Positions 18,505 through 42,692 of a stretch of DNA of 42,692 bases are shown here, piece by piece. Positions within the stretch are counted from its first letter, which is position 1. Each line of letters begins with the position of its first letter. The DNA comes from OM182 bacterium MED-G24 (GTDB taxonomy: Bacteria > Pseudomonadota > Gammaproteobacteria > Pseudomonadales > Azotimanducaceae): positions 1 to 42,692 of the forward strand of contig NTKD01000010.1 in assembly GCA_002457275.1 (NCBI GenBank), given 5' to 3'. The position numbers and the translations under genes are program-made. The notes under the pieces are model-generated. The model saw only the letters and a list, made by a program, of their open reading frames with translations. It was not told the origin of the DNA and ran no database searches.

Positions 18505-18549
18505 AAATCTCTCTGACCAGTATCGTTTTGACCGACTGTCTCCACTCGC

Positions 18550-20288: not shown

Positions 20289-20303
20289 GGTGCAGCCCTA
20301 GCG

Positions 20304-22534: not shown

Positions 22535-23281
22535 ATGTGGAACTGGATTCATCGTTGGGGTTCTCCGCCGGAATTCTATGTGATGAGCGGACGGCTGATC
22601 CCTTGGCTGGCCGGATTGACGGTCGCACTGTTCGTGGTGGGGGTTCCCTGGGCACTGTTGATTGCGCCTGAGGACTACCAGCAGGGAAACAGCGTGCGGA
22701 TCATTTACATCCACGTCCCTGCGGCAATTCTTGCTCAATCCAGCTATTTCATGATGGCAACTGCGGGCGCGATCTTTCTTGTCTGGCGCATCAAACTTGC
22801 TGATATCGCGATGGCCAGCGCTGCGCCGATTGGGGCATCGTTGACGTTTCTTGCCCTCCTGAGTGGCGCTATCTGGGGGAAGCCCACATGGGGTACCTAT
22901 TGGGTTTGGGACGCCCGGTTGACGTCTACGCTGGTGTTATTGTTCCTGTTTCTCGGGGTGATGTTGCTGCGTTCGGCAATGGCCGAACGCGCTGGTGGCG
23001 GTCGGGCATGTGCCGTACTTGCGCTTGTTGGCATCGTGAATATCCCGATCATCAAATATTCCGTCGACTGGTGGTTTACCTTGCATCAGCCTTCGACGTT
23101 TACGCTTACTGCCAAACCCGCAATGCCGGCAGAAATGTACCTGCCGTTGGTGGTGATGCTGTTTGCCTATTACAGTTTTTTCTTCCTGGCCTGGCTGATG
23201 CAGATGCGAGCCGAGGTCTTGGCAAAGGAGGCCCGGACGGATTGGGTTCGAAAGCTAGTGGGACGCCATGAACTGGTTTGA
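22535..23281 (+). CDS. ccmC: Haem exporter/handling protein CcmC
   Basis: A 248-residue inner-membrane protein that binds haem and delivers it to CcmE. The tryptophan-rich haem motif is WGTYWVWDARLT, and the flanking His residues in YIHVPAA and TLHQPST are the axial-ligand candidates. Six membrane segments are visible. The ATG at 22535 aligns with the usual MWxW/T start of CcmC (MWNWIHRWGSPPEFY). An ATG 12 codons earlier (22499) is possible, but it overlaps a TATAAT-like sequence (22495-22500) that could instead be a -10 box. Its end overlaps ccmD by 14 bp. Confidence 0.94.
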   Translation: MWNWIHRWGSPPEFYVMSGRLIPWLAGLTVALFVVGVPWALLIAPEDYQQGNSVRIIYIHVPAAILAQSSYFMMATAGAIFLVWRIKLADIAMASAAPIGASLTFLALLSGAIWGKPTWGTYWVWDARLTSTLVLLFLFLGVMLLRSAMAERAGGGRACAVLALVGIVNIPIIKYSVDWWFTLHQPSTFTLTAKPAMPAEMYLPLVVMLFAYYSFFFLAWLMQMRAEVLAKEARTDWVRKLVGRHELV

Positions 23282-23426
23282 ATATGGAACCCATGCTCCC
23301 TATGTATGGGCGGTTTATAGCATCGCTCTTGTGGTATTTGTTGCCAATATCATTTTCCCCATGAGGCGGCATGGCCGACTACTTAAGATGTTGGCGAAGG
23401 ACACCCTGGATCGGCAAAGATCATGA
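23268..23426 (+). CDS. ccmD: Cytochrome c maturation protein CcmD
   Basis: A 52-residue protein read directly from the sequence. It starts at ATG 23268 inside the end of ccmC and stops at TGA 23424-23426, overlapping the ccmE start. It reads MNWFEYGTHAPYVWAVYSIA, then one membrane helix, then a basic stretch (MRRHGRLLK). This is the standard CcmD plan: short polar start with a Tyr/Trp region, one helix, basic cytoplasmic tail. CcmD links CcmC and CcmE and is needed to release holo-CcmE from the CcmABC complex. Overlaps on both sides show tight co-translation. Confidence 0.93.
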   Translation: MNWFEYGTHAPYVWAVYSIALVVFVANIIFPMRRHGRLLKMLAKDTLDRQRS

Positions 23427-23899
23427 AGTTCGGCCCCATTAAGCCGCAACGCCGGCAGCGACTTTGGGTGGTAGCGTCGATTGTTGCCCTATCGGGAGTT
23501 GCTGTGGGATTGGCACTCATTGCGCTTCAGGATAACGTGAACTTTTTCTATTCACCGGCCCAGATCGCGGCAGGCGAAGCACCGGTAGGCCGTACGCTCC
23601 GAGGAGGAGGGATGGTAAAAGAGGGCAGTGTGAATCGTGAAGAAGGCGACCTGGGCGTGACCTTTGTGATCTCGGACCTAAAGGGTTCGGAGGTTTCCGT
23701 ACACTACGAAGGAATCCTGCCGGATCTTTTCCGGGAGGGGCAGGGCGTCGTTGCTATTGGACAGTTGGATGAGGAGCGTGTGCTGATTGCATCAGAGGTC
23801 CTAGCCAAACATGATGAAAACTACATGCCACCCGAAGTCGCCGAGGTGATTAAAGACGCGCACCTCAACACCGACCTCGATACTTTCCAACCCCTATAG
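23423..23899 (+). CDS. ccmE: Haem chaperone CcmE
   Basis: A 158-residue periplasmic haem chaperone with an N-terminal membrane anchor (residues 14-36) and an OB-fold domain. The haem is bound covalently through His130 in LAKHDENYMP, and Tyr134 follows, as in E. coli. VGRTLRGGGMVKEGS near residue 55 is the conserved first strand. It takes haem from CcmC and passes it to CcmF. Its ATG overlaps the ccmD stop, and ccmF begins directly after its TAG stop. Confidence 0.95.
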   Translation: MKFGPIKPQRRQRLWVVASIVALSGVAVGLALIALQDNVNFFYSPAQIAAGEAPVGRTLRGGGMVKEGSVNREEGDLGVTFVISDLKGSEVSVHYEGILPDLFREGQGVVAIGQLDEERVLIASEVLAKHDENYMPPEVAEVIKDAHLNTDLDTFQPL

Positions 23900-25876: not shown

Positions 25877-25878
25877 CG

Positions 25879-26406
25879 ATGCATCGCACACTGTTCTATG
25901 TCCCGATAGTCTGCTTCGTTATTATTATGGGGGTACTGGCGTGGGCCTTTACGCTTGAGGATGCGTCGAGACTGCCTTCAGTTCTCATCGATCGACCATT
26001 CCCGGCATTTGAACTACCTATAGTAAAGACTGGTGTCCTGGTCACTGAGCAGGATCTGAAGGGACGACCTGCACTGGTTAACGTGTGGGCGACCTGGTGC
26101 GCCAACTGCCTGATAGAGCACCCGCTTTTCATGGAACTGAAAGACGAAGTACCGATATTCGGCATCAACTATAACGACGACACCGATAAGGCTAAGGCCT
26201 GGCTCCGCCGCCATAGAGACCCCTATCAGTTCAGTATCGTGGATATTGAGGGGAAACTTGCGATCGATCTCGGGGTGTATGGGGCACCAGAGACCTATGT
26301 CATTGATGCGGAAGGCGCTATTCAGTATCGACACGTTGGCATTGTGAGCCGTGAGGACTGGGAGTTGACGCTGGCGCCTCTATTGTCACGATTGGAGTCC
26401 CGGTGA
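25879..26406 (+). CDS. ccmG: Thiol:disulfide interchange protein CcmG/DsbE
   Basis: A 175-residue thioredoxin-like protein with one N-terminal membrane anchor (residues 6-24). The active site is WATWCANCLIEHP, a CxxC with Ala-Asn where E. coli CcmG has Pro-Thr. The GVYGAPETYVIDAEG segment carries the cis-Pro region. It reduces the apocytochrome CxxCH disulfide in the periplasm before haem attachment. It starts two bases after ccmF, and its stop overlaps the GTG start of ccmH. Confidence 0.93.
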   Translation: MHRTLFYVPIVCFVIIMGVLAWAFTLEDASRLPSVLIDRPFPAFELPIVKTGVLVTEQDLKGRPALVNVWATWCANCLIEHPLFMELKDEVPIFGINYNDDTDKAKAWLRRHRDPYQFSIVDIEGKLAIDLGVYGAPETYVIDAEGAIQYRHVGIVSREDWELTLAPLLSRLESR

Positions 26407-26867
26407 AACGCCATTTCGCGAGAGTAGTGTTGCTGGTCCTCTGCTGGTCGCTGGTGTCGGTGTGTTGGGCAACGATTGAAGCCCATCCGTTTCCAGACGA
26501 TGAGCTCCGGAGTCGCTATCACTCCCTGATTTCTGAACTTCGTTGCCCGCAGTGCTTGAACACCAATCTTGCCGGGTCCGATGCGATGATTGCACTGGAC
26601 CTCCGGCGTGAGGTACACAGAATGCTGTTGGCGGGACACTCTGATAATCAGATACGGACGTTCCTGTTTGAGCGTTATGGCGACTTTGTACTTTACAGGC
26701 CCAGGGTCACCAGCCGAACGATTCTTCTCTGGGCGACGCCAGCCTTGTTGCTGTGTCTCGGCGCTTTTGTGTTCTGGCGGGTTGTGGGGGCAGGTGTAGA
26801 TCGACAGCGTACACCGCGAAAGCCGGGCGAAGCGGCGAGACTGCAACGATTGTTGAATGACCGATGA
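26403..26867 (+). CDS. ccmH: Cytochrome c maturation protein CcmH (CycL)
   Basis: A 154-residue protein with a cleavable-looking signal (residues 5-22), the redox motif LRCPQCLN near residue 45, and one C-terminal membrane helix (about 104-125). It works with CcmF and CcmI in handling the apocytochrome thiols. It corresponds to the short N-terminal domain of E. coli CcmH; the TPR part is a separate gene (ccmI) here, as in Pseudomonas and Rhodobacter. The GTG start overlaps the ccmG stop, and its stop overlaps the ATG of ccmI. Confidence 0.93.
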   Translation: MKRHFARVVLLVLCWSLVSVCWATIEAHPFPDDELRSRYHSLISELRCPQCLNTNLAGSDAMIALDLRREVHRMLLAGHSDNQIRTFLFERYGDFVLYRPRVTSRTILLWATPALLLCLGAFVFWRVVGAGVDRQRTPRKPGEAARLQRLLNDR

Positions 26868-28150
26868 TGTTCTGGCTCGTTGCATTGGCATTGTCACTGG
26901 TAGCCAGTGGCTTCATCTTGATCCCCCTCCTACGCTCAGCACGTCGCGCCGAAGCAGATCGGAACAGCACTGTTGTGAGCATTTTTGAAGAGCGGCTGGG
27001 GGAACTCAAGGAGTTGCGGAGTGACGGCAGACTGTCGGACAGTGAGTTTGATGCACTCAAAGAGGAACTGGAGGATTCATTGCTTGCTGAGACCGCAATC
27101 GAATCCAGCGAATCTCCGGAATCCTCTCAAAACAGGCGCATCAGCCCTCAGTGGGTAGCTGCCCTCGCAGTTCTTTTGCCGATTGTCGCTTTTGCATTGT
27201 ACAGTGATGTCGGTCTGTCGCTCGGTGCAATTTCAGATCACAATCTCGCAACCTCGCTCAGGGAGACAGATCCGGGCGATACGACACAGATGCGTCAAAA
27301 TGCAGATCGGCTTCGTCGCCAGTTGGAAAACCAGCCAGACAACCACCAGGGATGGTATCTGCTTGCGACCTACCTGATGAATGCATCGCAACCTGAGCAG
27401 GCTGCACAGGCTTTCGAGCATCTGGTGGCGGCCTATCCTGGGGATGTCGATCTTGCGGCAAGGTACGCAGAGATGCTGTTCATGGCGGATGACCGCACCT
27501 TGTCCACGCGCGTGGAGAAGGCGATGAGCAATGTGGTGAAACTGCAGCCACTGCATACTGGAATGATGGAACTCCGCGGCATGAGCGCCGCGTCTTCCGG
27601 CGACTATCGCAGTGCGTTGAGACATTTTGAACGTGCGTTGTCGACCCTGTCGGGCCGGGAGAGGGCTGCAGAACGAGGGCAGATCCTGGGAGCTGCAATT
27701 GCTCGGGTCAGGGAGATGGCCTCTGCCCATGCCGAAGATCCTCGCCAATCCTCAGAGGAACGACGAATCGAGGTCAAAGTTTCACTCGCGTCTCACCTGG
27801 TCGTGTCTCCTGAAACGCCATTATTCGTGTATGCGCGCGCAGCCGGCGGACCTCCCATGCCACTGGCAGTGCGGCGACTTCTGGCAGCGGACTTGCCAGT
27901 CACCGTGGCGCTGACCGAAGACATGGCCATGATGCCAGGTATGTCACTTGCCAGCTTCGACGATGTCGAGATCGTGGCTCGACTTTCGTCCAGCGGGATT
28001 GCGAACGCTTCGCCGAACGATCTAGAGGCGCGCTCACCGGTAATCAATGTGGAAACGATCAGCGACTCCGTATACCTTGAAATTTCGCAGCGACGTGGTG
28101 AACTGGATGTTGATGGTGAGCGATCAACTGGCAATGATTCGGTGCTGTAA
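26864..28150 (+). CDS. ccmI: Cytochrome c maturation TPR protein CcmI (CycH)
   Basis: A 428-residue inner-membrane protein. Two membrane helices lie at residues 2-24 and about 90-107. They are linked by a charged cytoplasmic coil (RLGELKELRSDGRLSDSEFD) typical of CcmI. TPR-like helices follow at about 140-280 (HQGWYLLATYLMNASQPEQA and others). A periplasmic C-terminal domain ends the protein. CcmI holds the C-terminus of apocytochromes c for the CcmFH lyase. The gene overlaps ccmH by the ATGA sequence and is 21 bp from slyD. Confidence 0.9.
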   Translation: MMFWLVALALSLVASGFILIPLLRSARRAEADRNSTVVSIFEERLGELKELRSDGRLSDSEFDALKEELEDSLLAETAIESSESPESSQNRRISPQWVAALAVLLPIVAFALYSDVGLSLGAISDHNLATSLRETDPGDTTQMRQNADRLRRQLENQPDNHQGWYLLATYLMNASQPEQAAQAFEHLVAAYPGDVDLAARYAEMLFMADDRTLSTRVEKAMSNVVKLQPLHTGMMELRGMSAASSGDYRSALRHFERALSTLSGRERAAERGQILGAAIARVREMASAHAEDPRQSSEERRIEVKVSLASHLVVSPETPLFVYARAAGGPPMPLAVRRLLAADLPVTVALTEDMAMMPGMSLASFDDVEIVARLSSSGIANASPNDLEARSPVINVETISDSVYLEISQRRGELDVDGERSTGNDSVL

Positions 28151-28171
28151 CAAAGTAGTCTGGAAAGCAAA

Positions 28172-28633
28172 ATGAAGATTGGACCCAGAAAAGTGGTGTC
28201 ATTCGAATACAAATTGAGTGATGAATCAGGACAGGAATTTGAGGCATCTGATGATGAATCGATGAAGTTTCTGTTTGGCAGAGGGCAAATACTCCTCGGA
28301 CTTGAAGATGCCCTGAAGGGACACTCCGAAGGAGATGAGGTTATTGTCACCCTGCCACCGGAACGGGCCTATGGTCTGTACGATGAGAATAACCGGCATC
28401 GTATCTCTTCCAAGCATGTTGCTGGGAACATCAAGAGGAAGAAACCAGGTGAGATTATTTCAGTCAATACGCCTTCTGGTGTGCGAAATGCACGCCTTAT
28501 CAAGGCAGGCAAGTTCAATGTGGATATTGACAGCAATCATCCACTTGCCGGCAAGACACTTCGATTTGAGATGACGGTGAAACAGGTGAGGGATGCGAGC
28601 CAGGAAGAGCTGGATCACGGACATGCTCACTAG
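28172..28633 (+). CDS. SlyD-type FKBP peptidyl-prolyl isomerase
   Basis: A 153-residue FKBP of SlyD type: KVVSFEYKLSDESGQEFE, then FLFGRGQILLGLEDALKG, LPPERAYGLYD, the inserted flap (about residues 72-118) and the closing FEMTVKQVRDAS. A short tail ends HGHAH, a reduced form of the metal-binding His-rich tail of E. coli SlyD. It speeds proline isomerisation and chaperones folding in the cytosol. It follows ccmI by 21 bp and is probably the last gene of that transcript. Confidence 0.9.
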   Translation: MKIGPRKVVSFEYKLSDESGQEFEASDDESMKFLFGRGQILLGLEDALKGHSEGDEVIVTLPPERAYGLYDENNRHRISSKHVAGNIKRKKPGEIISVNTPSGVRNARLIKAGKFNVDIDSNHPLAGKTLRFEMTVKQVRDASQEELDHGHAH

Positions 28634-28638
28634 CCAGT

Positions 28639-28868
28639 AATTCGCGGCAACGGGTTCAAAGTGCAGGTTGTCTGAGGGTCTGGTGATGAGGTCGGTCGGC
28701 GGGGTGATATCGGTGGGGTTCCCGTTTTGAATGATCTTCGGGACCAGTAGATCCTCCCGTGCCGCGCTATACCCGAGGGTGACTCTGACCGGGTTCCCCT
28801 AGACGCCCATGGCGACGACAATCCCTGTATTCCCAAGTATCCATAGGATTGCTCGTCGGATTCCCACC
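28639..28868 (-). other. 230-bp spacer with a coding-like remnant
   Basis: On the minus strand one frame reads RRAILWILGNTGIVVAMGV, a TAG at 28799-28801, then VRVTLGYSAAREDLLVPKII and PVAANYW. The composition looks protein-like, with a membrane helix followed by a polar part, but I do not recognise the family and it is interrupted. It may be the debris of a lost gene between slyD and the mutase gene. Confidence 0.25.
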
Positions 28869-31037
28869 TTAGCCTCGTGTCAATGACGTACGCGCCTCGA
28901 TGAGGCTGAGTACTTCGTCCGAGGAAACCGTGACCGGTGTACCGGGTCCGAATACGCCGTGAACACCGGAGTTATACAGAAACCCATAGTCCTGTTTTGG
29001 GATCACGCCACCGACAACCACGACGATATGATCCGCGCCGGCTGCCTTGAGCTCTGCAAGAAGGTCGGGGACCATTGTCTTGTGTGCGCCTGCCAGTGAG
29101 GAAACACCGATGGCATGGACCTCCTCACGGATGGCCTGGTCTACGACCTCCTTGGGCAAAGAGAACATAGGGGTCAACGCTGTGCGAAATCCTGCGTCAG
29201 CAAATGAGGACGCGATGACTTTCGCACCCCTGTCATGTCCATCCTGCCCGAGTTTGCAGACAAGGATGGCGGGCGCGGTCTCGTTTTCAGCCGTGAACGC
29301 CTTGATCCGGGTCGTCAGATCCTGCCATGACTGATCGTCGTTCATGGCCTCACCATAGACGCCCGAAACTGTTCTGGTCTCTGCCTCATACCTTGAGTAC
29401 GCATCCTCCAGCGCCAGCGTAATCTCACCGCCAGTGGCACGAGCCCGTGTGGCGATAACGGCGAGATCAAGCAGATTCCCAGAGTTGTTGTCGGCCGCCT
29501 CCCGAAGATCCTTCAGGTGTGTCTGAACCTGCTGCTCATCTCGATGAATCCTGATTTCTGCCAGTCTGTCCAGCTGTTTTTTGAGTACCTCTGAGTTCTC
29601 GATTTCGAGAACTTCAATCTGGTCGGGTGTCTTGGTCTGATACTTGTTGACGCCAACGATGACCTGTTCACCATTGTCGATCTGAGCCTGTCGTTTCGCG
29701 GCTGCTGATTCGATCCGCAACTTGGGTAGGCCGGTTTCGATGGCACTTGCCATACCTCCCTTGTCTTCAATCTCGACGATCAGGTCCCATGCGCGGTCGG
29801 CCAGTTGACTCGTGAGTGATTCCATCATGTAGGAACCACCCCAAGGATCAATGACGTCTGTAATGCCGGTTTCTTCCTGCAGAATCAACTGGGTATTCCT
29901 CGCTAACCGTGCACTGCTCTCTGACGGTAGGGCGATGGCTTCGTCCAGCGCGTTGGTGTGTAAAGACTGCGTACCTCCGAAAACGGCAGCCATGGCTTCG
30001 ATCGTCGTGCGCACAACGTTGTTGTGAGGGTCCTGTTCAGTTAGCGACCAGCCGGAGGTCTGACTGTGTGTCCTCAGCATTTTCGATCGTGGATTTCCGG
30101 GATTAAATTCATCAACGATTCGAGACCACAGTAACCGAGCCGCTCGAAGTTTGGCAATCTCCATATAGAAGTTCATCCCGATTCCCCAGAAGAAGGACAA
30201 TCTGGGCGCAAAGTCGTCGATGTCCAGACCGGCAGCGAGAGCGCAACGGATGTACTCTTTGCCGTCTGCAAGCGTATAGGCCAGCTCCAATGCGGCGTCA
30301 GCACCAGCTTCCTGGATATGGTATCCCGATATCGAAATAGTATTAAAACGGGGCATGTGCTCCGTGCAGTAAGCGATGATGTCGCCGACGATTCGCATCG
30401 AAGGCCCTGGTGGGTAGATATAGGTATTACGTACTAGAAACTCTTTCAGAATGTCATTCTGGATAGTGCCTGATAAGTCAGCTTGCGCGACCCCCTGTTC
30501 CTCTGCAGCGACGATGTATCCGGCCAAAATGGGTAGCACGGAGCCATTCATGGTCATGGACACAGAAACCTGGTCCAGCGGTATCCCATCAAACAGGAGC
30601 TTCATGTCCTCGACAGAATCGACAGCGACACCAGCCTTTCCCACGTCGTGGATTGCCCGTTCGTGATCCGAGTCGTACCCCCGGTGGGTGGCGAGGTCAA
30701 AAGCGACCGAGATACCCTGCGCACCTTCCGACAGGAGTTGGTGATAGAACGCGTTGGATTCTTCGGCAGTGGAAAACCCCGCGTATTGTCGAATTGTCCA
30801 GGGTCGTCCCGCATACATGGTCGCCTGCGGACCACGGATGTACGGTTCAAGGCCAGGCAATGTGTCTTTTGTTGCAGATCCAGAAATATCCTCTGCAGTA
30901 TAGAGTGGCGATAGTTCGATACCCTCCGCAGTTTGTACCTTCAGGCTGTCAACAGGCTTCCCCTTCATGAGTTTGCCTGCCGCCTTTGCCCAGTCTTCGA
31001 GGCTGCTCTTGGGTGGCGTATAGCGGTTGTCACTCAT
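28869..31037 (-). CDS. scpA: Methylmalonyl-CoA mutase
   Basis: A 722-residue B12-dependent mutase converting (R)-methylmalonyl-CoA to succinyl-CoA. The N-terminal TIM barrel includes [20 protein letters not shown] and [13 protein letters not shown]. The C-terminal cobalamin domain has [13 protein letters not shown], with the lower-ligand His. It is a single-chain (homodimer-type) enzyme of normal length. The ATG at 31037 matches the conserved start and overlaps the epimerase gene by 8 bp; ATGs at 31061-31064 and the frame to 31109 are alternatives. It is the last gene of a four-gene propionate operon. Confidence 0.95.
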
Positions 31038-31476
31038 TTGCGGCTCTGTCGGTTTGTTCATCATGGTGAGCATCTTCTGGATACTCGTTGAGCTCGATGA
31101 GTACGCCATCGCATGACTTCGGGTGAATAAAAATCACACGCGTACCGTGTGCGCCAATAGAAGGCTTGTCGGTGATGAACCGATAACCCTTTTCCTGCAG
31201 GCGCAGGATATCGGCGTCAAGGTCATCGGTTCTAAAACACAGGTGGTGAATACCTGGCCCTCGCTGCTCCAGGTATTTCACCAGTGGGCCGCCGCCGTCG
31301 CTTGGGTGAACCAGTTCGATGCTGGTGCCTGGGACCGGAAAAAAAGCTGTTGTCGTCTGTGCGGCAGCAACCTCTTCGGTACCCTGAAATTCCAGACCGA
31401 AGTCCTCCATGAAGCGGGAGATGGCCCGCGTTAGATCAGGTACAGCGATCGCGATGTGATCGAGTGCGGTGATCAT
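31030..31476 (-). CDS. mce: Methylmalonyl-CoA epimerase
   Basis: A 148-residue vicinal-oxygen-chelate protein. [10 protein letters not shown] near residue 6 and [14 protein letters not shown] near 73 give metal-binding His residues, and VLIELNEY near the end gives the Glu ligand. It interconverts (S)- and (R)-methylmalonyl-CoA, joining the carboxylase product to the mutase. Its ATG overlaps the stop of the biotin carboxylase gene (ATGA), and its end overlaps the mutase start, so the three are co-translated. Confidence 0.93.
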
Positions 31477-34289
31477 GGTCGGGCTCCGTCGTCAGATTCC
31501 AGGCGTAGCGTTCGCAGGAACTCATCCGTCTCGGATCGTCGGAGAGCGGCCATTTCGTCTGGGGTTGGTAGTGTGATGATCTCGTCGGGGGTGACCTTGA
31601 AGATAGGCTGTCCCTTTTTGATGATCGTCTGATCCTCTCCAATCAGTACTTTATCGATGGTTCCTGAGAATGGTGCTCTGACCTTGTTGAACATCTTCAT
31701 GACCTCGATGACGCAGAGATCATCTCCTGTTTCGAAGTGGTCCCCTGGTTCAACGAGCGGCGGGCGATCGGGCGCCTCGCGCGAATAGAACATACCACCG
31801 GAAGGTGCAGAAATTTCGTCCCCGGCGGCTACCGGTGGTGGTGACAGGTATCGCAAACTCTCTGCTGTTGTATCTGGATCGCGGGTCCAATTAGGCAACT
31901 CAACTGTCAGATCCGCATTAACACGAAGTTCGAAAAAGCGTGCACGATCCGCGATGTAGGGCAGCAGGTTCAACAATTCAAGTCCGATCTGATGACCGGC
32001 ATGTGCACCGACGACGTCATCTCGGGCCTCGGTGTGCAGATTGCCATCGGGTCCCATCAGATCGCGTGCCGAAAGTTCACGGATGAAGGAGAGACCCGTT
32101 TCGAGGATTTCCAGGTCCTCTGGCCAGATCGTATACAAGGCAGGTGTGTTGTCGTCCGGAAGCATGTTGAGGAACTCATAGATGTCAGCGAGCACAAACA
32201 ACCTGTTCCTGTGCCATGACACGGCTCGGTCAGTAACCGTGAAGTCCCCCTGGTACCTTGCGAGCCAACCGGCGAGATAGTGGGGTTGATCTAGCAATCT
32301 TTCCACCGCCCGAATAACCAGATTCGACTTTCTCGCCATGACATCTGAGATCGCCGCGTTGTGACTGGCGTCTTCTGTCCCGGACAGGTAGCGCTGTTCG
32401 ATCTGGCGCCACGCATAGGACAGGTCAATATCGGACGCGCAGCGAGTTAGTTGTCCAACGGCGGTCAGGTAGGGCAGTGTGAAACTGGTCGCCGGTCTAG
32501 CCTGTACGTTCTGGCCGGTGAACCAATTGATTAACCCATAGTGGAAGTTCAGGTTGGTGCTGAGGTTCTCACCTGTGATTTTCATTTTACGGAGGATTGT
32601 CGCCGCACGTTCGAACGTATCTTCGCGACTCAGGCCGGTGGTGAGTTCCAGCGCAATATTCGAGTCGTAAGCACCGGCAAGGTGATAACGCATGAACATA
32701 TCGGTGTCGGGGTTGGTGAGGCAGATCCCCTGATCATCCCTGATTTCGCCTTCGAGTGGCGATGACCAATCGGTGATCACACCACCGGCGTGGGGTCTCA
32801 GTGCATCGTCGCTCGCGTTCAGTCGAATTTCCGCTGATGCTCCTTCCCGCCTGATCCGCTCGGGACAAGGGAGTCGAGCACCATGTCGGGCCAGGAGCAC
32901 CATGAGTTCGATGATCGCATCGACTTCAAAGCGGTCGTTGTGATCCTCTGGGTTTATGAATCTCAAACTGTAGCAAAGTTCGCTGACGCGATGTTCGACC
33001 TGGACGCGAGTGTTCATTTCCATGAAGAAGTGGTTGTCCTGGTCAACGATACATTCGAATGTGGAGACGGAGTCGAGTCCGACAGCTGCACCAAATCTGA
33101 CTGCCTCCTCCTCCATTCGGATTAGGGTTGCGAGATCCTGTTTTAGTGAGGCCACTGCGGATTCCTGGCCCGCATCGTTAGCTTTCAGGATGCCATCTTC
33201 AAGTTCGGGGACTGTGAGCGACAATTCGAGTAGCTTTTGCTCATTCATCTGAACTGAACAATCACGTCCACCCATGGTGAGGCACCACTCGCCATTTCCC
33301 ACAACCTGAATTTCAACGTGGCGAACGGTCTCAATGTTGAGTTCTGCAAGCACATTCTTGTTGTCGCCAACGCCCCCGGCGCGTACTTCCGACAGAATTT
33401 CACGAAAGAGCGTGTCCACACGTCCGCATGCGGCGTCAATGGACTCAGAACTGCTATCGGAGGGAGCGTCAAGAATGCGTTGTCCCTTACCGCCACCGCC
33501 ACCGATAGCCTTCAGGCGGATACGGTACCTGGGATGAAGACGCATGAGGTCAGCGACACATGCAGTCAGCGTCTCGCTCAAGTCATCGATCGAGAAGAGG
33601 TCTACACCTTGTTCATAGGATGTCTCCAATACCGCGGAAACAGCTTCTTTGAGTTCCATCGTGGCGATATCAAGGTCGAATCCCTGTTCACTGATCAGTG
33701 AAGACAAAGCCGCCTTGTCCGGGTACAGACGTTCCAGTGTCAGTTCGGTGGCATTGTCGACGCCTGGAGTGACTGACACGTCTTCAGCGATTGCCGTTCG
33801 TTTGGCAAGATCTTTGTTACCGGCTGATCGTACGGTTCTTGAACAGGGGCCAATAAAGTTCAAGCCCGCATCTTCCAGCGCGGAGACCAGCGTTTCATCT
33901 TCGGCCATGAAACCGTAACCGGCAAACACCGCGTTATAGTTGTGCGCATGCGCGATTTGAACGATCTCATGGATGCGTTCAAGACGTTCCTCTTTCGTCG
34001 CGCCACTGTAGTCCGGTACGCGATGGACCCGCTCATCCGGCAGTCCCTTCCGCAACTCGGGAGACAATGCTTCGGTATAGGTGATTGAGTCCTTCTCTGA
34101 AAGCAGGATGCCGTAGTGCTCGATTCCGAGTTCTTCGAACACCGTCATTGCTTCGATCCGAATAGGCCCGCGGCAGATGATCAGCGGCTGAACATCTGAA
34201 CAGTCAAACGAGCGACGCCAGGTCGATCCACCTGTCTTTCGGCGGTTCTGGTGTATAAGCGGATTTCGGTGGTACCACTGACCGGACAC
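31473..34289 (-). CDS. Atypical biotin carboxylase/biotin carrier fusion, predicted propionyl-CoA carboxylase alpha subunit
   Basis: A 938-residue protein. The N-terminal carboxylase part begins PLIICRGPIRIEAM (usual form: ILIANRGEIA) and holds KAIGGGGGKGQR (ATP-grasp loop), RHVEIQVVGNG, GGRDCSVQ and FFMEMNTRVQVEH. The ATP-grasp domain carries an insertion of roughly 70 residues before the glycine loop. A long middle region (about 560-790) of unclear fold follows. The C-terminal biotinyl domain has EVMKMF (Lys865; EAMKM is usual). It would carboxylate biotin and, with the carboxyltransferase encoded 11 bp upstream, make methylmalonyl-CoA. The GTG start at 34289 has CGGAG six bases before it. 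Several active-site neighbours differ from the standard subunits. Confidence 0.85.
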   Translation of the reverse strand: MSGQWYHRNPLIHQNRRKTGGSTWRRSFDCSDVQPLIICRGPIRIEAMTVFEELGIEHYGILLSEKDSITYTEALSPELRKGLPDERVHRVPDYSGATKEERLERIHEIVQIAHAHNYNAVFAGYGFMAEDETLVSALEDAGLNFIGPCSRTVRSAGNKDLAKRTAIAEDVSVTPGVDNATELTLERLYPDKAALSSLISEQGFDLDIATMELKEAVSAVLETSYEQGVDLFSIDDLSETLTACVADLMRLHPRYRIRLKAIGGGGGKGQRILDAPSDSSSESIDAACGRVDTLFREILSEVRAGGVGDNKNVLAELNIETVRHVEIQVVGNGEWCLTMGGRDCSVQMNEQKLLELSLTVPELEDGILKANDAGQESAVASLKQDLATLIRMEEEAVRFGAAVGLDSVSTFECIVDQDNHFFMEMNTRVQVEHRVSELCYSLRFINPEDHNDRFEVDAIIELMVLLARHGARLPCPERIRREGASAEIRLNASDDALRPHAGGVITDWSSPLEGEIRDDQGICLTNPDTDMFMRYHLAGAYDSNIALELTTGLSREDTFERAATILRKMKITGENLSTNLNFHYGLINWFTGQNVQARPATSFTLPYLTAVGQLTRCASDIDLSYAWRQIEQRYLSGTEDASHNAAISDVMARKSNLVIRAVERLLDQPHYLAGWLARYQGDFTVTDRAVSWHRNRLFVLADIYEFLNMLPDDNTPALYTIWPEDLEILETGLSFIRELSARDLMGPDGNLHTEARDDVVGAHAGHQIGLELLNLLPYIADRARFFELRVNADLTVELPNWTRDPDTTAESLRYLSPPPVAAGDEISAPSGGMFYSREAPDRPPLVEPGDHFETGDDLCVIEVMKMFNKVRAPFSGTIDKVLIGEDQTIIKKGQPIFKVTPDEIITLPTPDEMAALRRSETDEFLRTLRLESDDGARP

Positions 34290-34300
34290 AAATTACTCCG

Positions 34301-35935
34301 TTAGTGAAATTCTCGCTGGATACCGTTGAACGGCCCTGGCTCGTAGTGATCAAGGTGGAATTTCATGTGCTCGGCAAGTATCTGCCGCAGATTCTGTGGC
34401 ATAACCATCTGAGAAATGGACCCCAGGCTGAGCGCTTCCTTCGGATTCATCAGTTCTTCTTCGTACCGTCGCGCCAGCTTTGACTCTTCCTGCGCGAGCC
34501 ACGCGTCATCATGATCCGCTGCTTGCTTTCGAATTGAACGCAGTTCGTCTTTGTAAACAAACTCAACACCTGGCGGGCCCATGACTGCAACCCGGGTTGG
34601 TGGCAATGCGATGACGAGATCAGCTCCGGTCGGATAGTTGTTATAGGAAGCGTAGGCGCCACCGATGGCGTTTCTCACCAGTACCAGGAGGCGTGGGGTA
34701 CGCAGATCGATTATTGCGTCCAGCATGGCACGTCCCGCCTGGACGATACCGCGACTTTCCTGATCTCGCCCTGGCAGGAAGCCGGTTGTATCTTCCATGA
34801 AAATAACCGGGATGTTGTAGAGGTTACAGAACCTGATGAAGCGGGCGTTCTTATAGGCTGCGTCGATGTCGATTTGTCCCGAGCCAACGGCGGAGTTGTT
34901 GGCAACGAAGCCGACGACCTGGCCACCCAGCCGCCCAAAACATGTGATGGTATTGCGCGCCCGGTCAGGCTGTATTTCGAAGTAATCACCGTGGTCGCAG
35001 ATCTGCTGGATGATGATGCTCACGTCGAAAGGTGTGTTGAACCCTGCGGGGGAATCAAATGCGACCCGGAATAACCTGTCAATATCGCTGGTCTCACGAT
35101 CGATTGGGTCAGACGTGTTTTGAAAAGGGGCGAGTTCGCTATTGTTCCTGGGGAGGTACTTCAAGAGTTCCTTCGCCTTGATCAGAGCGCTTACCTCGTC
35201 TTCAACAACAAGATCTGTCACACCTGTTTGACTGTGCACGTCTGGGCCACCCAAAGCATCCGGTTCAATATCTTCACCGAGTACCGACTTCACGACGGCT
35301 GCTCCGGTCAGACCGAAAAAGGTCTCTCTGGGTTGAATCAGGAAGCTCCCCTGTCTCGGAAGGTAGGAGCCTCCGCCCGCGTTGAAGCCAAACATGCACA
35401 TGATGGATGGCACGACACCGCTGATTTTTCGAAGTGCGGTAAATGCCTTGGCGTAACCGTCAAGGCCACCGACACCGGCGGGCACATAGGCACCTGAGGA
35501 GTCGTTCATCCCAATCAACGGAATCTTGCGTTCACCTGCCAGTTCAAACAATTTCGCTAATTTTTCACCGTTGGTGGCATCCATCGATCCAGCGCGGACG
35601 GTGAAATCATGTCCATAAATCGCGACGTCTCTTCCATCGATATTGAGTACGGCGGTGACAAGGGAAGCCCCATCCAGGTTCGGTCCCCAGTTCTGATACA
35701 GTACTTTCGGAGTCGCGTTCGACAACACGCCCAGTCGTTCCCATACGGTCATCCGATTCTTGGCGTGTTGACGCTGAATGTTCTTCCAGCTTGGCGCAGT
35801 CTGCGGACGCTCTAGGAGCTCTTTCGTTGACGCGAGCGTTGTTTCATATGGACTCTGCGTGCTAACACCGTTGGATGATGTGTGATCTGGAACCTGCAGA
35901 GGGTTTGTCAGGGAAGGTAAAGGTCGGGTACTCAT
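34301..35935 (-). CDS. Acyl-CoA (propionyl-CoA) carboxyltransferase subunit
   Basis: A 544-residue carboxyltransferase with two crotonase-like halves. The N half includes [20 protein letters not shown] and [15 protein letters not shown]; the C half includes [19 protein letters not shown] and [13 protein letters not shown]. It moves carboxylate from biotin to an acyl-CoA, most likely propionyl-CoA because the epimerase and mutase follow. The ATG at 35935 is the first gene of the operon. A roughly 50-residue polar N-terminal extension precedes the conserved core. Confidence 0.92.
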
Positions 35936-36446
35936 GGTTCAGTATTCAGTAGGGGCGGGGATTGTAACATCGGGTTTTTGTGAAACACACGCTCACAGTA
36001 TCCGCCGACTCGCTGACCAGGACAGTGGCCAGATAGTCAAATTGTACAAAAAATGCTCAATTTCGCAGTTTGTCGCCTAGCCTTGCCGCTGAATCGTGAA
36101 ATTGTGACCCAGTTCAAAGTTTCTGCCAGCTTTACCATCGCATACTTGGCTTCAAGAAATAGAGTCCCTTGCTTCGGACTGACCGAGCATGAGGGGCCAC
36201 AAACGATAAAGGATGGCTATCAAGGATGTATGATCAGACAGTGGGGAAGGAACAATAAGGGAACTATGTTAAATCCCAACATCATTCCGGTTGATTTCGC
36301 CAGTGAGGGGCTTATCCCCGCCGATGAAATCCCAACGATGACCCGTCGCCTTTGACCCGCCGGCTCGAGCGATTTGAGCTGGACCAGGAGGACTTTGGTC
36401 ATGGCATTACAGCCAAGCTCTGCAGGTCATAACGACAAATACTCGG
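35936..36446. other. 511-bp region: propionate-operon promoter side and possible eroded 5' part of the next gene
   Basis: The left 300 bp should contain the minus-strand promoter of the carboxyltransferase operon; a TACAAT-like box on the minus strand near 36045 is only suggestive. From 36266 a plus-strand frame with an AAGGGA ribosome site reads MLNPNIIPVDFASEGLIPAD and stops at 36355. A second frame (36355-36432) reads RRLERFELDQEDFGHGITAK. A third frame runs into the next gene. The three frames together look like one coding region broken by frameshifts. A very good ribosome site (AGGAGGA, 36386-36392) precedes ATG 36401, which opens only 17 codons. Confidence 0.3.
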
Positions 36447-37136
36447 TTGAGTGAACGTCGTGCGCTCTATGCGCGAACGGTTAGAAAAGTGGATCAAAGA
36501 GTTGTCGATCCGATGCGCCTGTTGCCCTTCGTCATATTCGAACCTCATCGAAATCTGGCTGCAGAGGCGGTCGCAGAGTACCTCAAATATCGACATTGTG
36601 ATGTCAGTGATGAATTTGCCGGCGTTCACGAGATCATTGGAGTCCTAGCAAACGACTACACTGTCAACAAGGGAGCGGTTCTGGCTAGGCTTATTCCCTT
36701 TGGTGGTCGACGTATCAATGCTGTCGCTCGCGCGGCGCGACGACTATTGAAACCGGTTGATATCCGTGATTTCGCACGCGTTCAGTCAAATAGTATCGAG
36801 TCCTCATCTGTTGAGTTCTGCCTAGATTGGCTTGTTGAGTTGGATCAGGACAGCGGCCAACGTGCAATCAACGATCTTTCTTGCGCCATTCAACCGATGG
36901 CGATCCATGATCAGCTCGGAGCGGTTGAAGATGTTACTGAGAATAACTACGTCGGACTGGGACCTACGCAGGTATTGCAGTTCAAACCGTTTGAAAGCTA
37001 TTTCGCTGAGACCGATCCCATTCTGGGTTATCTCTCGTCGAGGGAAGGGTTCGAAGAGGCGATTGAGAACATCGTCGAGGTTTGGAAGTCTCACAGGGAA
37101 GATGCTCAGTATTTTCGCGCCTTTTGCGGCGTTTAG
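36447..37136 (+). CDS. Hypothetical helical protein, possibly 5'-disrupted
   Basis: A 229-residue frame starting at TTG 36447 that I do not recognise. It is mostly helical and charged, with repeated segments such as MRLLPFVIFEPHRNLAAEAV, VHEIIGVLANDYTVNKGAVL and RRINAVARAARRLLKP that resemble HEAT-like helical pairs. There is no signal peptide or membrane segment. The frame is open upstream to 36378 without a standard start. The strongest ribosome site nearby (before ATG 36401) leads into a different frame that ends at 36454. Either a frameshift separates the true start from the body or the TTG is used with translational coupling. It converges on the ArsS-like gene. Confidence 0.5.
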   Translation: MSERRALYARTVRKVDQRVVDPMRLLPFVIFEPHRNLAAEAVAEYLKYRHCDVSDEFAGVHEIIGVLANDYTVNKGAVLARLIPFGGRRINAVARAARRLLKPVDIRDFARVQSNSIESSSVEFCLDWLVELDQDSGQRAINDLSCAIQPMAIHDQLGAVEDVTENNYVGLGPTQVLQFKPFESYFAETDPILGYLSSREGFEEAIENIVEVWKSHREDAQYFRAFCGV

Positions 37137-37219
37137 CCTTTGCAGATGTCATTCCGGGCCGGTTCGTATCCTCACCCCACAGTTAGCCCGTAAATAACCC
37201 CTGTAAACAACCCAAAAGG

Positions 37220-38179
37220 TCAGGCGGACAGGGCGCCACCACAGCTCGAACCCTGTCCGGCGGTACAGCCGTAACAGTGTTCGCCAACATGAATGGACCG
37301 TCCTTCAAGTTCGGCGTCAAGCAGTTCAGACAGGTGAACCTGGTGGTCGGTGGCCAGTGGCATCTCGAGCATCTGGTTGAAGTCGCAATCGTAGACGAAC
37401 CCCCGATAGTCGATACTGATCAGTGAGCGACACATGACAGTCGCAAGGTTATCGGGCACAAATGCGTCCCTGAGAAGGGCCATGTAGTCGGCGTAGTCTC
37501 CCTTTGCCAGTAGTCTGGCGCCAAACCGGCTGATGGGCATGTTCGCTAGGCAATACAGTTCGTTGAACACGATGTCATGTTCAGTGGCGAGGGCATCCTT
37601 GTAGTCCTGCGTCAGTTCCTGCTGAGGTGGCGGCAGAATAGGTGCGTCCGGGTTGTACACGAGGTTCAGTGTGAGTCCGGAATTCGGGTGTCCATAACCG
37701 AGGGCATTCAGTTTTTTAAGCCCCGCGATGCTGCGTGCATAGACCCCTTTACCACGTTGCCCGTCGACGTTCTCTTCCTGATAACAAGGCATGGAGGCGA
37801 CGATCTGAACCTTCTGTTCTGCGAGGAATTGAGCGAGATCCTCATAACCTGGTTCGACGAGAATCGTGGGATTGCATCGATCCATGACTTCAATGTCACT
37901 GCGACGTGCGGCACGAACCAGATCACGAAACCCCGGGTTCATTTCCGGCGATCCACCAGTCAGATCGAGCGTCTGGATGTCCCGAAGCCTGGCGAATTTG
38001 AGTACCAGGGCCAGCGTCTCTGTGTCCATCAGTTCTGTGCGTGTGGGACCCGCATTGACGTGGCAGTGGGTGCAACTGATGTTGCACAGGTATCCGAGGT
38101 TGACCTGCAGGGTGCTTAATCGGCCACGTGTGATGGGTGGGAAATCTGTCTCCAGCAGGAGCGGTCGTGTGTCTTGCAT
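37220..38179 (-). CDS. arsS: ArsS-like radical SAM protein (TIGR04167; arsenosugar biosynthesis family)
   Basis: A 319-residue radical SAM enzyme. The iron-sulfur motif is CNISCTHC (Cys32, Cys36, Cys39), and LTGGSPEMN is the SAM-binding GGE-like region. The C-terminal Cys-rich domain (DUF3641) ends in CYGCTAGQGSSCGG, a hallmark of this family; some relatives carry selenocysteine nearby, but here all are Cys codons. ArsS-type proteins transfer the 5'-deoxyadenosyl group to methylated arsenic in arsenosugar synthesis. The matching TIGR04283/TIGR04282 glycosyltransferases are about 19 kb away at 17138-18504. No ArsM was found in the window. Confidence 0.88.
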   Translation of the reverse strand: MQDTRPLLLETDFPPITRGRLSTLQVNLGYLCNISCTHCHVNAGPTRTELMDTETLALVLKFARLRDIQTLDLTGGSPEMNPGFRDLVRAARRSDIEVMDRCNPTILVEPGYEDLAQFLAEQKVQIVASMPCYQEENVDGQRGKGVYARSIAGLKKLNALGYGHPNSGLTLNLVYNPDAPILPPPQQELTQDYKDALATEHDIVFNELYCLANMPISRFGARLLAKGDYADYMALLRDAFVPDNLATVMCRSLISIDYRGFVYDCDFNQMLEMPLATDHQVHLSELLDAELEGRSIHVGEHCYGCTAGQGSSCGGALSA

Positions 38180-38313
38180 CGGAGGACTATATCATGATGA
38201 GTTTGCGGGGCAGCGGCTGGTCAGATTTCAGAGGCGACTGCACCAGACTGAACACACGGTCGTCTGGCCGTGTACCTAAGGACCCGGTCAGTGCAAACAA
38301 TGTTGCACAGGGT

Positions 38314-39342
38314 TCATGCAGAAATGTATGTGGCAGGGTCCGATTGTCGGGTCTGGATACGTCGCGCCGCGTCTGCGGCGATTTCGAATGATCGCACACG
38401 TTTTGCATGTTCGTAAATGGAACACACCAGCATGAGCTCGTCAGCCCCAGTCTCTTCAATAAACGCGGACATTCCCGATTCCAGATCATCCACTGTGCCC
38501 GAAGCAATCGGGTTGTTCATTTGCTTCAACAATGACCTGTTCAGGTCGTCGAGCTGATCTTCAAGATCAGCAACGGGCGGCGGTAACAGGGTCGGTGTCC
38601 CCTTACGCATATTGAGGAACGAGAGTTTTGACGACGATCGCAGGTAGTTGGCCTCCTCCTGACTTTCCGCGCCGCAGATATTGAAACCGAGCATGACGTA
38701 GGGCTGTTTCAAAGTCTCTGACGGTTTGAAAGTGTCCCGGTAGATTGAAATGGCTTCCGCCATCATGGCAGGTGCAAAGTGAGAGGCGAATGCGAATGGG
38801 AGACCCAGCATCGCGGCGAGCTGCGCACCGAACAGGCTTGAACCAAGAATCCAGAGCGGAACATGGGTCCCGGCACCCGGTGTGGCGACGACTCGTTGTC
38901 CATCCTGCGGAGCGCCCAGATAGTGATGCAATTCCACTACGTCTCTTGGAAAGTCTTCCGCGCTGCCGTTCAGGGTCCTGCGCAATGCGTGTGCTGTGAT
39001 CTGGTCAGAACCCGGTGCCCTTCCGAGGCCGAGATCTATTCGATCCGGAAACAGTGAGGCGAGGGTACCGAACTGCTCCGCGATGACGAGTGGTGCGTGG
39101 TTGGGCAACATGATGCCGCCGGCCCCGACACGGATTTCCTGTGTGCCCGTCGCGATATGGCAGATAACGATGGAGGTTGCGGCACTGGCGATGCCACGCA
39201 TGTTGTGGTGTTCTGCAACCCAGTAACGGTTGTAAGCCAGCTGCTCTGCATGTTGAGCCAGATCGAGAGAGTTCCGCAATGCGTTGCTGGGTGTACTCCC
39301 CTGTACAACTGGTGACAGGTCCAGCACCGAAAATCGGGTCAT
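38314..39342 (-). CDS. LLM-class flavin-dependent monooxygenase (luciferase-like)
   Basis: A 342-residue luciferase-like flavin oxidoreductase. [12 protein letters not shown] at the start, YWVAEHHNM near residue 40, [20 protein letters not shown] and [11 protein letters not shown] are typical of the MsnO8-like subgroup. These cytosolic enzymes use FMNH2 and oxygen on varied small molecules; the substrate is unknown. The gene diverges from the acyltransferase at 39570 with a hairpin-rich region between. It is a single gene, 135 bp upstream of the ArsS-like gene on the same strand. Confidence 0.9.
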
Positions 39343-39477
39343 GTTTGTGCTCCTCTACGCCACGGGTACGTCACGGGAATTTTATCACGGTATCACCCGT
39401 CCTAGGCTGTGCACCGTGACAACCGCCTGTCAGGAAAATGGTGTGATGTGAGAGGTTCGTCAATCCCGCCGCACTGT

Positions 39478-39510
39478 TGAAGGGTACGTTTCAAAACGTA
39501 CATCCCCCAA
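39478..39510 (+). promoter_or_regulatory. Stem-loop in the leader upstream of the acyltransferase
   Basis: GTACGTTT (39484-39491) and AAACGTAC (39494-39501) form a perfect 8-bp stem with a two-base loop. The stem can be extended outward with GG/CC and TTG/CAA pairs around mismatches. It lies directly before a strong terminator hairpin on the same strand. Confidence 0.6.
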
Positions 39511-39514
39511 TTAT

Positions 39515-39551
39515 AACTTCAGTCCCGATTTTTGGGACTGAAGTTTTTTTT
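39515..39551 (+). terminator. Strong rho-independent terminator within the leader of the acyltransferase gene
   Basis: AACTTCAGTCCC (39515-39526) pairs perfectly over 12 bp with GGGACTGAAGTT (39534-39545) around a 7-base loop, followed at once by a T-run to 39551. It faces the plus strand. No plus-strand gene ends just upstream, because the LLM gene is on the minus strand and starts at 39342. It therefore either attenuates the acyltransferase gene starting 18 bp later or ends a small RNA transcribed from this divergent region. Confidence 0.85.
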
Positions 39552-39569
39552 GCTAGGGGATAACGTGTC

Positions 39570-40217
39570 GTGGCCGATGCATCAGGAAACGCTTCAGATG
39601 ATCACCAGAACGCCATGACTCAGCGCGTAAGCCGAAAACGGGCCTGCGGCTCTTTTGCCCGGTGGCTTGGCAAAACGGTCAACCGGTGCGCCGGCTGGCA
39701 GGTTGAAGGACAGGCGCCGGACGATGCGAGGATGCTGATCATCGCTGCACCGCACACCAGCAATTGGGATTTCATCTACCTGATCGCGGCAGCATTTTCT
39801 CTTGGGTTGTCTGTTCACTGGATCGGTAAGGAAAGTTTGTTTCGCGGCCCCCTTGGCCTAGTACTTCGGTTCATGGGGGGTATCCCTATCGATCGCTCGC
39901 GTCGGAACAATCTGGTTGCGTCGCTGGCTGAGGAGATCAACGCGAGCCCCGGATGTGTACTGGTGGTCCCGCCGGAAGGAACTAGAGGGCAAGCACCCTA
40001 CTGGAAATCGGGCTTTTTTCGTATTGCCCAGACCGCAAGGATCCCGATGGTTTGCGGTTTTCTCGACTATCACAGAAAAGTCGCCGGACTTGGGCCGGTG
40101 ATTCCACACGACATTGATGAAGAATCCCTCATGGCCAGGCTGAGCGACTTTTATGTCGGCATCCAGGGGAAATACCCTGGTAACTTTGGTCCTGTCAGAT
40201 TGAAGGAAACGTCCTGA
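39570..40217 (+). CDS. 1-acyl-glycerol-3-phosphate acyltransferase (PlsC)-like protein
   Basis: A 215-residue acyltransferase. HTSNWD (His62 to Asp67) is the HxxxxD catalytic motif, and PPEGTRG (134-140) is the glycerol-phosphate binding motif. FMGGIPIDRSRRNN is the third conserved block. It probably acylates lysophosphatidate or a related acceptor at the inner membrane; no clear transmembrane helix is present beyond short hydrophobic parts. The GTG at 39570 has GGGGA about nine bases upstream, just after the terminator's T-run. Its stop codon is directly adjacent to the stop of the convergent MFS gene. Confidence 0.85.
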   Translation: MADASGNASDDHQNAMTQRVSRKRACGSFARWLGKTVNRCAGWQVEGQAPDDARMLIIAAPHTSNWDFIYLIAAAFSLGLSVHWIGKESLFRGPLGLVLRFMGGIPIDRSRRNNLVASLAEEINASPGCVLVVPPEGTRGQAPYWKSGFFRIAQTARIPMVCGFLDYHRKVAGLGPVIPHDIDEESLMARLSDFYVGIQGKYPGNFGPVRLKETS

Positions 40218-41480
40218 TCAGAGACTTTCTACCTTGGCACTCATGCTGACTCGTCGACTACCGCGTGTTTCAACTCTGAGTACCGCGATGGCAAGAGCGA
40301 CAATACCGTAGAGACCAAAAAACGTCAGGAACGCGGCGTCGTAGCTACCGGTATGGTCATAGACCCATCCTGTAAAGGGTGGTCCTGCTAGATGAATAAA
40401 GGCCATCAGCAGGTGCATGACGCCCATCACCTGTCCGAAGGAAGCCCTTCCAAAGGCTGCGCCGACAACTGCTCCCTGCATCGGAACGATCCCTCCCATG
40501 CCAAACCCGAAAATCGCGGCGCCGAACATGAAAAGCGCGTAGTCGTTGTTCAGAAACATGATGCTCTGACCAATAACCTGGCTCGCGACCGCAATCCAGA
40601 AAGCGAGTCGAACTGGCATCCGGTCGATCATGGAACCGAAGGCCAGTTTTCCGACGACGCCCGTCCCAGCGCACACCGAGGCGATGAAGGCGGCAGCCAC
40701 AAGGTCAATGCCGATATCGGTTGCGCGGGGAACCATGTGGATCAAGGTCGCGCTCTGGATGCCGAACAACAGGCCGATGATCACGACCATCGCGATAAAG
40801 TTCCGGTCAACCACCATCTCGCTGGTCTTGAGTGGCGATCTTGCAGGCGGTAGCTGCTCCTGACTCTTGAGGCCATCGGGAAGAAGCCCAACATCTTCAG
40901 GACGAGATACGACGAATCGAAGCACGAGGGGTACGAGGACCACCAGGGTGATCAGTCCATAGACCATAAACCCTTCGCGCCACCCGAAATGAACGATAAA
41001 CCATGCACTCACCGCGGGCATCACCATACCGCCTATGGAAATTCCGGTTGAGGCAATGCCTAATGCCGTGCCGCGCTTCAGCACGAACCAGTTGCTGATG
41101 AGTTTCAGTGATCCGATCTGTGCGGTTGCCGTTGAACCGAATCCCATGAACAGGCACATGACGAGATAAAACCAGAGTGGTGAGGTCGTGAAACCGAGCA
41201 GGATGAAACCAATCCCCAGAGACGTTGCGGCAAGTGCGATCACCTGCTTGATGGGGTATCGATCGAGCGCACGTCCGATCAGGGGGGCGAGCAATGCACC
41301 TGTACCCTGTGCAATGACGATACCCAGGGAGACCCCCAGCCTGGACCCTTCGAAATCGTCCGCGATGGCTTTAAAGAAAACCCCGTACGAGTAGAAGAAG
41401 AAGCCAATCGCAATGAAATCTATGCAAAATCCGATGGCGACCATGCGCCGGCCGAGGAATCGGTTGGTGATATCATTCAC
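40218..41480 (-). CDS. MFS transporter (monocarboxylate/oxalate-formate antiporter-like)
   Basis: A membrane protein of about 420 residues with twelve hydrophobic segments. GRALDRYP at the loop between helices 2 and 3 and ASTGISIGGMVMPA in helix 5 fit monocarboxylate or oxalate/formate antiporter-type MFS carriers. A long polar loop (SRPEDVGLLPDGLKSQEQLP) separates the two halves. The substrate is unknown. The GTG at 41480 is chosen because GGAGTGACGGG precedes it and the membrane part begins soon after; an ATG at 41444 is an alternative, and the frame is open to 41603. Its TGA abuts the acyltransferase stop to form TGATCA. Confidence 0.83.
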   Translation of the reverse strand: MNDITNRFLGRRMVAIGFCIDFIAIGFFFYSYGVFFKAIADDFEGSRLGVSLGIVIAQGTGALLAPLIGRALDRYPIKQVIALAATSLGIGFILLGFTTSPLWFYLVMCLFMGFGSTATAQIGSLKLISNWFVLKRGTALGIASTGISIGGMVMPAVSAWFIVHFGWREGFMVYGLITLVVLVPLVLRFVVSRPEDVGLLPDGLKSQEQLPPARSPLKTSEMVVDRNFIAMVVIIGLLFGIQSATLIHMVPRATDIGIDLVAAAFIASVCAGTGVVGKLAFGSMIDRMPVRLAFWIAVASQVIGQSIMFLNNDYALFMFGAAIFGFGMGGIVPMQGAVVGAAFGRASFGQVMGVMHLLMAFIHLAGPPFTGWVYDHTGSYDAAFLTFFGLYGIVALAIAVLRVETRGSRRVSMSAKVESL

Positions 41481-41553
41481 GGACGACCCGTCACTCCAAT
41501 GAAGTTCTGCGAAGTACTGCGCGAGGCCCGATTTTAGGGGCCAGGGGTGATAC

Positions 41554-42491
41554 CTATCGCGGCATCGCTTTGCCGTCAGGACTGACTCGCGGCTGAAATC
41601 CACGATCCTGGCGTCGCATGTTTGTGCGCTTTATGGCCGGTAGATCGAGCGTCATGTGTGGCTGTCCTCGCAGGCAGCCTAGAGCATAGGGGAATTCATG
41701 GGTGGAATGGTAGTGGTAGAGCTGTTTTGACACGCCATCCCACTCAATGTCGTGCTCATGTCCGTCACAATCGTCGAGACCCACGTCGGTGATGGTTTCG
41801 CCATCTACTGTCATCGCGTTATAGATTTCGAATCCGTCTGCACCTTACCCAACAAGTGCATGTGGCTGAGAGGCGGCATCGCAGTGTGTCACTTGGTGGT
41901 AGTGGTAGATGCCACGTTCGTCCGGGTGGCCCATGCAAATTTCCGTCATATTGTGAGCGCCAGCATCGCGCTGCATTAGGTCGAGTGGGTCGAACGGCAG
42001 CCTCCCTGTCAGCATCACGCCGATAGGGCCCGCCGGCAGACAGTGTGCCGCGGGCGAACGCTATGGTGTCTGGGGCAACGTCATCGAAAAATCCTGGAGT
42101 CGTACAGGATTTCCATTGCGTTGATACCTGACCCCATCGTCCTGCCGCGAAATTGGAAACTCTCCCGTTGGGTGATTGGGCAGATTATTGGTGGTGATTT
42201 CTCGGATATTGTGGTCCGGCTGGGAAGACATTTCCAGGTCTTCGGGCCAGTGAATCTCTACGTAGACTGAAGGCTTGCTGTCCGGTTCGTAATGACCCAC
42301 TACAATCCAGTCGCCGCTGCGATGCGCGACCGGTTCATAACGATCCCCCTCACAGGTGTACACATGGTGCTTCCGGGGCATGTCCGAGATTTTCCATCTC
42401 CGATGGGCGCTGACAGGGTTGCACCACCTACTGAGCCCAAGAAAGCCAGACCCGTCAATATCAGGGTCAACTGGTTTCTTATAGGTGTCAT
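41554..42491 (-). pseudogene. Decayed YHYH-domain secreted protein gene
   Basis: Reading the minus strand from ATG 42491 gives a signal-peptide-like start (NQLTLILTGLAFLGSVGGAT). After a shift of frame near 42380 it continues RKHHVYTCEGDRYEPVAH and LPNHPTGEFPISRQ. A TAG lies at 42061-42063, then come PIGVMLTGRLPFDPL, RGIYHYHQVTHCD, a TAA at 41845-41847, GADGFEIYN, and KQLYHYHSTHEFPYALGC. The paired YHYH motifs and the GADGFxIY segment identify the YHYH domain (PF14240), a secreted family of unknown function. At least one frameshift and two stops make it non-functional. It lies just upstream of the MFS gene. Confidence 0.8.
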
Positions 42492-42692
42492 GGGTCTGCC
42501 GATTTGCTGGTACATCCCTTGGTACATGGGGGGCTGAAGAATGAGCCTCTGTATTGATGTAGTTGAGACTTTAAGACTGACGATTGATTCCAATCCGGCG
42601 CAGGTGCTTTCTGGCGGCACTGAACGGAGTCAGTTATTCTTCGGCCATTGTCCTGTGATCGCCAGTCCTCTCTGGCACGGATCACAAGAACG

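Follow-up and report, generated by a model that had tools for sequence, protein, structure and literature searches.

A candidate small RNA gene ending in an orphan terminator between divergent oxidoreductase and acyltransferase genes of OM182 bacterium MED-G24

Hfq-dependent trans-acting small RNAs (sRNAs) of gammaproteobacteria end in a terminator hairpin with a U tail and carry an unpaired stretch before it. For a leader that acts through termination, one would expect an alternative fold, a leader peptide or a ligand family, as well as a stable link to the gene that follows. In Sinorhizobium meliloti, sRNA candidates were selected by orphan terminators (PMC2573895), and according to PMC4509938 Hfq-dependent sRNA genes typically carry such a terminator. 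The element that we describe lies in the window, the whole 42,692-nt stretch of contig NTKD01000010.1 that was analysed. It resembles the S. meliloti candidates in being a short intergenic element with a gene-less terminator that is kept in a close relative, but differs in that it is known from sequence alone, with no promoter recognised and with one relative. With the Hfq-dependent sRNAs it shares the terminator and the U8 tail, a stretch before the terminator that is unpaired in the predicted fold, and an hfq gene in the genome, whereas Hfq contact and targets are putative here and no Rfam sRNA family is reached. In transcription attenuators and riboswitch leaders a terminator hairpin likewise stands shortly before a gene of the same strand, but the tests made here yielded no alternative fold, no conserved leader peptide and no ligand-binding family.

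The LLM gene and the acyltransferase gene are divergent, and the terminator sits in the intergenic gap that separates both (Table 1). Because the upstream LLM gene points away, the terminator is an orphan. At this level the sequence-only reading was borne out: the perfect 12-bp stem and the T-run are present on the plus strand, the adjacent upstream gene is on the minus strand, so that no plus-strand gene precedes them, and the ORF just downstream matches an acyltransferase family.

Table 1 Features of the locus in coordinates of the window
Feature	Position	Strand	Basis or remark
ArsS-type arsenosugar biosynthesis radical SAM protein	37220-38179	-	TIGR04167, 447 bits against a cut-off of 300
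MsnO8 family LLM class oxidoreductase (luciferase-like monooxygenase)	38314-39342	-	TIGR03558, 425.9 bits against a cut-off of 166.95
Proposed small RNA body	39440-39514	+	moderately conserved, 5' end approximate; alignment to L031:2342-2414
First hairpin GTACGTTT-CA-AAACGTAC	39484-39501	+	exact 8-2-8 palindrome GTACGTTTCAAAACGTAC
Intrinsic terminator hairpin AACTTCAGTCCCGATTTTTGGGACTGAAGTT	39515-39545	+	12 perfect pairs, 14 with G-U
T-run, eight T (U8 tail of the transcript)	39544-39551	+	read in the sequence
Acyltransferase	ORF 39570-40217, likely 39615-40217	+	PF01553
MFS transporter, L-lactate / monocarboxylate carrier-like	40218-41603	-	score under the NF049980 cut-off

The terminator repeat surpasses in length all other perfect inverted repeats (spacer 2-10) of the window, which holds one with arms of at least 12 against a mean of 0.03 in 30 dinucleotide shuffles. 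It also tops the 41 terminator-like sites of the whole window (7 + 15 + 19) in pairs, with 14 compared to 9 in the next site. On the opposite strand TTATAATTGG comes after the stem, an arrangement called terminator-like by a looser scan but not by the standard one; given the call of the looser scan, the terminator may be considered mainly, perhaps not only, a plus-strand terminator. The segment 39400-39555 folds below its own shuffles (z -4.2, 0 of 200 as low), while after removal of the terminator the folding is not clearly below them (z -1.4, 17 of 200). The element is single-copy in its own assembly (85% complete), where the second match of a covariance model falls on this very terminator, read on the opposite strand.

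When the intergenic DNA was searched against 58 genomes, own genome included, 30 of them gave a match at E up to 1. Apart from the own genome, the sole convincing match is the same-genus genome G001 (E 2.5e-8), and the next one reaches 0.017 over 19 bases. The order ArsS-type radical SAM, LLM, acyltransferase, MFS transporter is common to the window and G001. In G001 the terminator is found at about 2414-2445 of L031, with seven T at the same place (2444-2450). The 12-nt 3' arm GGGACTGAAGTT is identical, and the 5' arm carries two changes, a mismatch and a substitution that leaves a U-G pair, with which the stem still folds (-17.2 kcal/mol versus -20.7 kcal/mol in the window). In the window the last T lies 209 nt from the LLM start and 63 nt from the acyltransferase ATG; the corresponding distances in G001 are 208 nt and 155 nt.

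Conservation was assessed by segment, with borders that had been picked after the alignment was seen. The terminator segment agrees with G001 in 37 of 47 columns and the 74 nt before it (39441-39514 against L031:2342-2414) in 47 of 79; in either case none of 500 shuffles does as well. The LLM-proximal 98 nt are random-like (62 of 500), and the 62 nt that follow the terminator are unconserved in a local alignment (99 of 500). The first 38 nt of the 74-nt body, taken alone, are matched by 6 of 500 shuffles. A sliding test with cheap gaps, which performs poorly with a null median of already 0.83, is passed by the terminator only, and by a narrow margin (0.93, where the null has its 95% point at 0.90 and its maximum at 0.93); when it was redone with stricter gaps, the best 30-nt stretch of the body was equalled in 11 or in 34 of 300 shuffles, according to the gap cost. 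Judged from this alignment, the terminator far exceeds every other part of the intergenic region in conservation, and the ~75 nt before it appear moderately conserved in G001. The element is known from two genomes, too few for a real covariation test.

A covariance search in related genomes, which had been suggested along with the sequence-only reading, did not extend this picture: with model R1, built from two sequences (window and G001), only G001 is credible beyond the window. Among 206 family genomes R1 detects at E <0.1 just the loci of the window and of G001, besides a reverse-strand match to the window's own terminator. With the stricter filters applied, at which weak matches are lost, none of the remaining 204 family genomes yielded the element, and nothing credible appeared in 390 genomes of the order that were drawn evenly from a larger group. 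Two weak matches at the family level (E 0.22 and 0.52) overlap ORFs. At the order level, four other matches at E 0.1 were counted as chance or convergent terminators, one being inside an ORF, one continuing from the end of an ORF that is presumably a fumarase and two being terminators in other contexts. An order-level relative has an intergenic look-alike terminator, AACUUUAGUUCUGAUUUUUGGAACUAAAGUU (L177:1501-1546), with other neighbours, which we take as convergence. The exact terminator pattern occurs in viral contigs in 9 stretches, in most of which R1 finds hairpins; the best viral-contig match to R1 (E 8.7e-06, in L188) stems mainly from the terminator stem. Plasmid records gave no match to the element.

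The gene neighbourhood has a similarly narrow distribution. Among the loci examined, LLM stands beside the acyltransferase in the two same-genus genomes only; the adjacency is seen in 0 of 28 other acyltransferase loci (30 loci listed of 80 genomes with a match, flanks of ~1.5 kb) and in none of 80 loci from named genomes, whose flanks extended to at most 3 kb. No comparable terminator precedes the 28 LLM homologues from outside the genus, these being the loci listed of 132 other genomes with a match, or the 28 acyltransferase homologues from other genera among the loci listed, three of which have <600 nt upstream. Smaller or other hairpins are present in nine of these 56 loci, namely 6- or 7-pair hairpins only at five LLM loci and smaller or other hairpins at four acyltransferase loci. 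The largest hairpin outside the genus, with 11 pairs in L055, lies inside an ORF upstream of the acyltransferase and is not an equivalent. The element is apparently confined to one genus.

We propose, with a probability of roughly 0.45, that the element is a stand-alone plus-strand sRNA gene reaching from about 39440 to 39551 and thus roughly 110 nt long. It is the moderate conservation before the terminator that tips the balance towards an sRNA gene. A promoter upstream, probably within about 39380-39440, would start an RNA heading away from the LLM gene. Termination at the strong intrinsic hairpin would give this RNA a stable 3' stem-loop and a U8 tail of the sort bound by Hfq, and the RNA would then probably base-pair with mRNAs elsewhere. 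The hfq gene (PF17209) is above the cut-off in 2 of 2 genomes, the window's own and G001, and a clear pairing of the RNA with the two adjacent gene starts was not detected (19 to 59 of 200 shuffles as good). No sigma-70-like site (9 of 12) was recognised upstream of the proposed RNA, nor anywhere in 36000-42692; as shuffles of this region give a mean of 3.8 sites, the scan may not suit the organism. At the same threshold, 20001-36000 holds 0 sites against a shuffle mean of 8.3, and 1-20000 holds 10 against 11.4.

An ordinary sRNA candidate of restricted distribution is plausible on these data. We give very little weight to a more far-reaching version, in which a new sRNA family of restricted distribution, bound by Hfq, would be co-regulated with the divergent LLM and ArsS-type radical SAM genes and would, by way of trans targets, link these genes to membrane lipid or arsenic-related metabolism. 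If transcribed, the element would add one more small RNA, so far in one genus only, and would illustrate how, next to a divergent promoter, an sRNA gene of recent origin can be marked by an orphan terminator. Its value would be mainly that of an annotation, since it is an ordinary kind of bacterial feature and opens no long-standing question.

An attenuator, a riboswitch-like leader and a small RNA of about 100-150 nt had all been offered as explanations on first sight of the sequence. This interpretation is supported in part: the sRNA is the one that fits best, whereas no riboswitch family, antiterminator or conserved leader ORF was found. One alternative would be a leaky leader, in which transcription starts upstream, most copies end at the terminator, and read-through, under the control of a protein, a ribosome or a ligand, sets the expression of the acyltransferase. 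The terminator is on the same strand as this gene and directly upstream of it in both species, and the window has no sigma-70-like site between the two and little room for a promoter in the 63 nt before ATG 39615. G001, however, has a promoter-like site after the terminator, although the number there (2 sigma-70-like sites against a shuffle mean of 0.7) is expected by chance and says little. When the 3' arm of the terminator was forbidden in one constrained fold of 39440-39552, made for the window only, the 5' arm paired nowhere else, which speaks against an antiterminator, and none of the leader ORFs listed for both species looked conserved by eye. At the gathering score Rfam returns no sRNA or riboswitch family in the whole window and one tRNA only; riboswitch families are absent even from permissive scans, for which the E limit was 10 in the window and 5 in G001. 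The permissive matches, mir-9791, anti-hemB, MIR7994 and HSR-omega_1 in the window and sR55 as the sole one in G001, are far below their gathering scores, the best sRNA match being anti-hemB with 16.1 bits versus 49.5. Parts of 39430-39480 resemble what we take to be the conserved core of the cobalamin riboswitch, a family that is absent from the permissive scans of both species, and G001 is without most of those letters. As neither the spacing nor the sequence after the terminator is kept in G001, and as the acyltransferase homologues listed from other genera lack such a terminator, we consider a regulated leader unlikely. Only somewhat unlikely, in our view, is an insulating role, by which divergent activity of the LLM promoter or stray plus-strand transcription would be halted before the acyltransferase while the short RNA itself has no function. 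According to PMC10268837, many prokaryotic promoters drive divergent transcription, and PMC12825309 is cited in support of insulation. A strong terminator that faces the acyltransferase, exceeds the rest of the region in conservation and keeps its distance to the LLM start is consistent with this role. Conservation of the 74 nt preceding the terminator, for which the evidence is moderate, would not be needed for insulation, and no comparable terminator is seen at the LLM homologues listed from outside the genus.

The first hairpin was half of the argument for the initial proposal of a two-hairpin leader. Both hairpins do exist in the sequence, but the first one is near chance in size: the window gives 11 entries of inverted repeats with arms of at least 8, three of which are second registers of repeats already listed, against a shuffle mean of 7.1 counted alike. 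The surrounding 42 nt have a folding energy of -9.6 kcal/mol, which 12 of 300 shuffles reach; for the counterpart of the hairpin in G001 the value is -5.0 kcal/mol, with 255 of 300 shuffles equal or better. The letters are similar in G001 (20 of 29 columns), the structure is not kept. A lack of conservation of this hairpin in relatives had been named beforehand as evidence against the two-hairpin proposal, and such a lack is what the sole relative found displays. The inverted repeat could alternatively serve as a DNA operator, a palindrome bound by a protein, and not as an RNA hairpin, and indeed the 8-2-8 palindrome is perfect and intergenic with divergent genes on either side. We hold this to be most improbable, since the palindrome is present in a single copy in the window even if 3 mismatches are allowed, is lost in G001 and is of a size in which repeats are near chance level.

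Some observations concern the flanking genes. The acyltransferase probably starts at ATG 39615 and not at GTG 39570, where the ORF opens, because in G001 the matching ATG is immediately preceded by an in-frame TAG. Automatic annotation may choose the longer form from GTG 39570. The closest named relatives of the acyltransferase are mostly from Pseudomonadales and other gammaproteobacterial MAGs, which makes a gammaproteobacterial host probable. The MFS transporter gene is convergent with the acyltransferase ORF and directly adjacent to it, and on the other side of the gap the ArsS-type radical SAM gene adjoins the MsnO8-type LLM gene, a pair that is also adjacent in G001.
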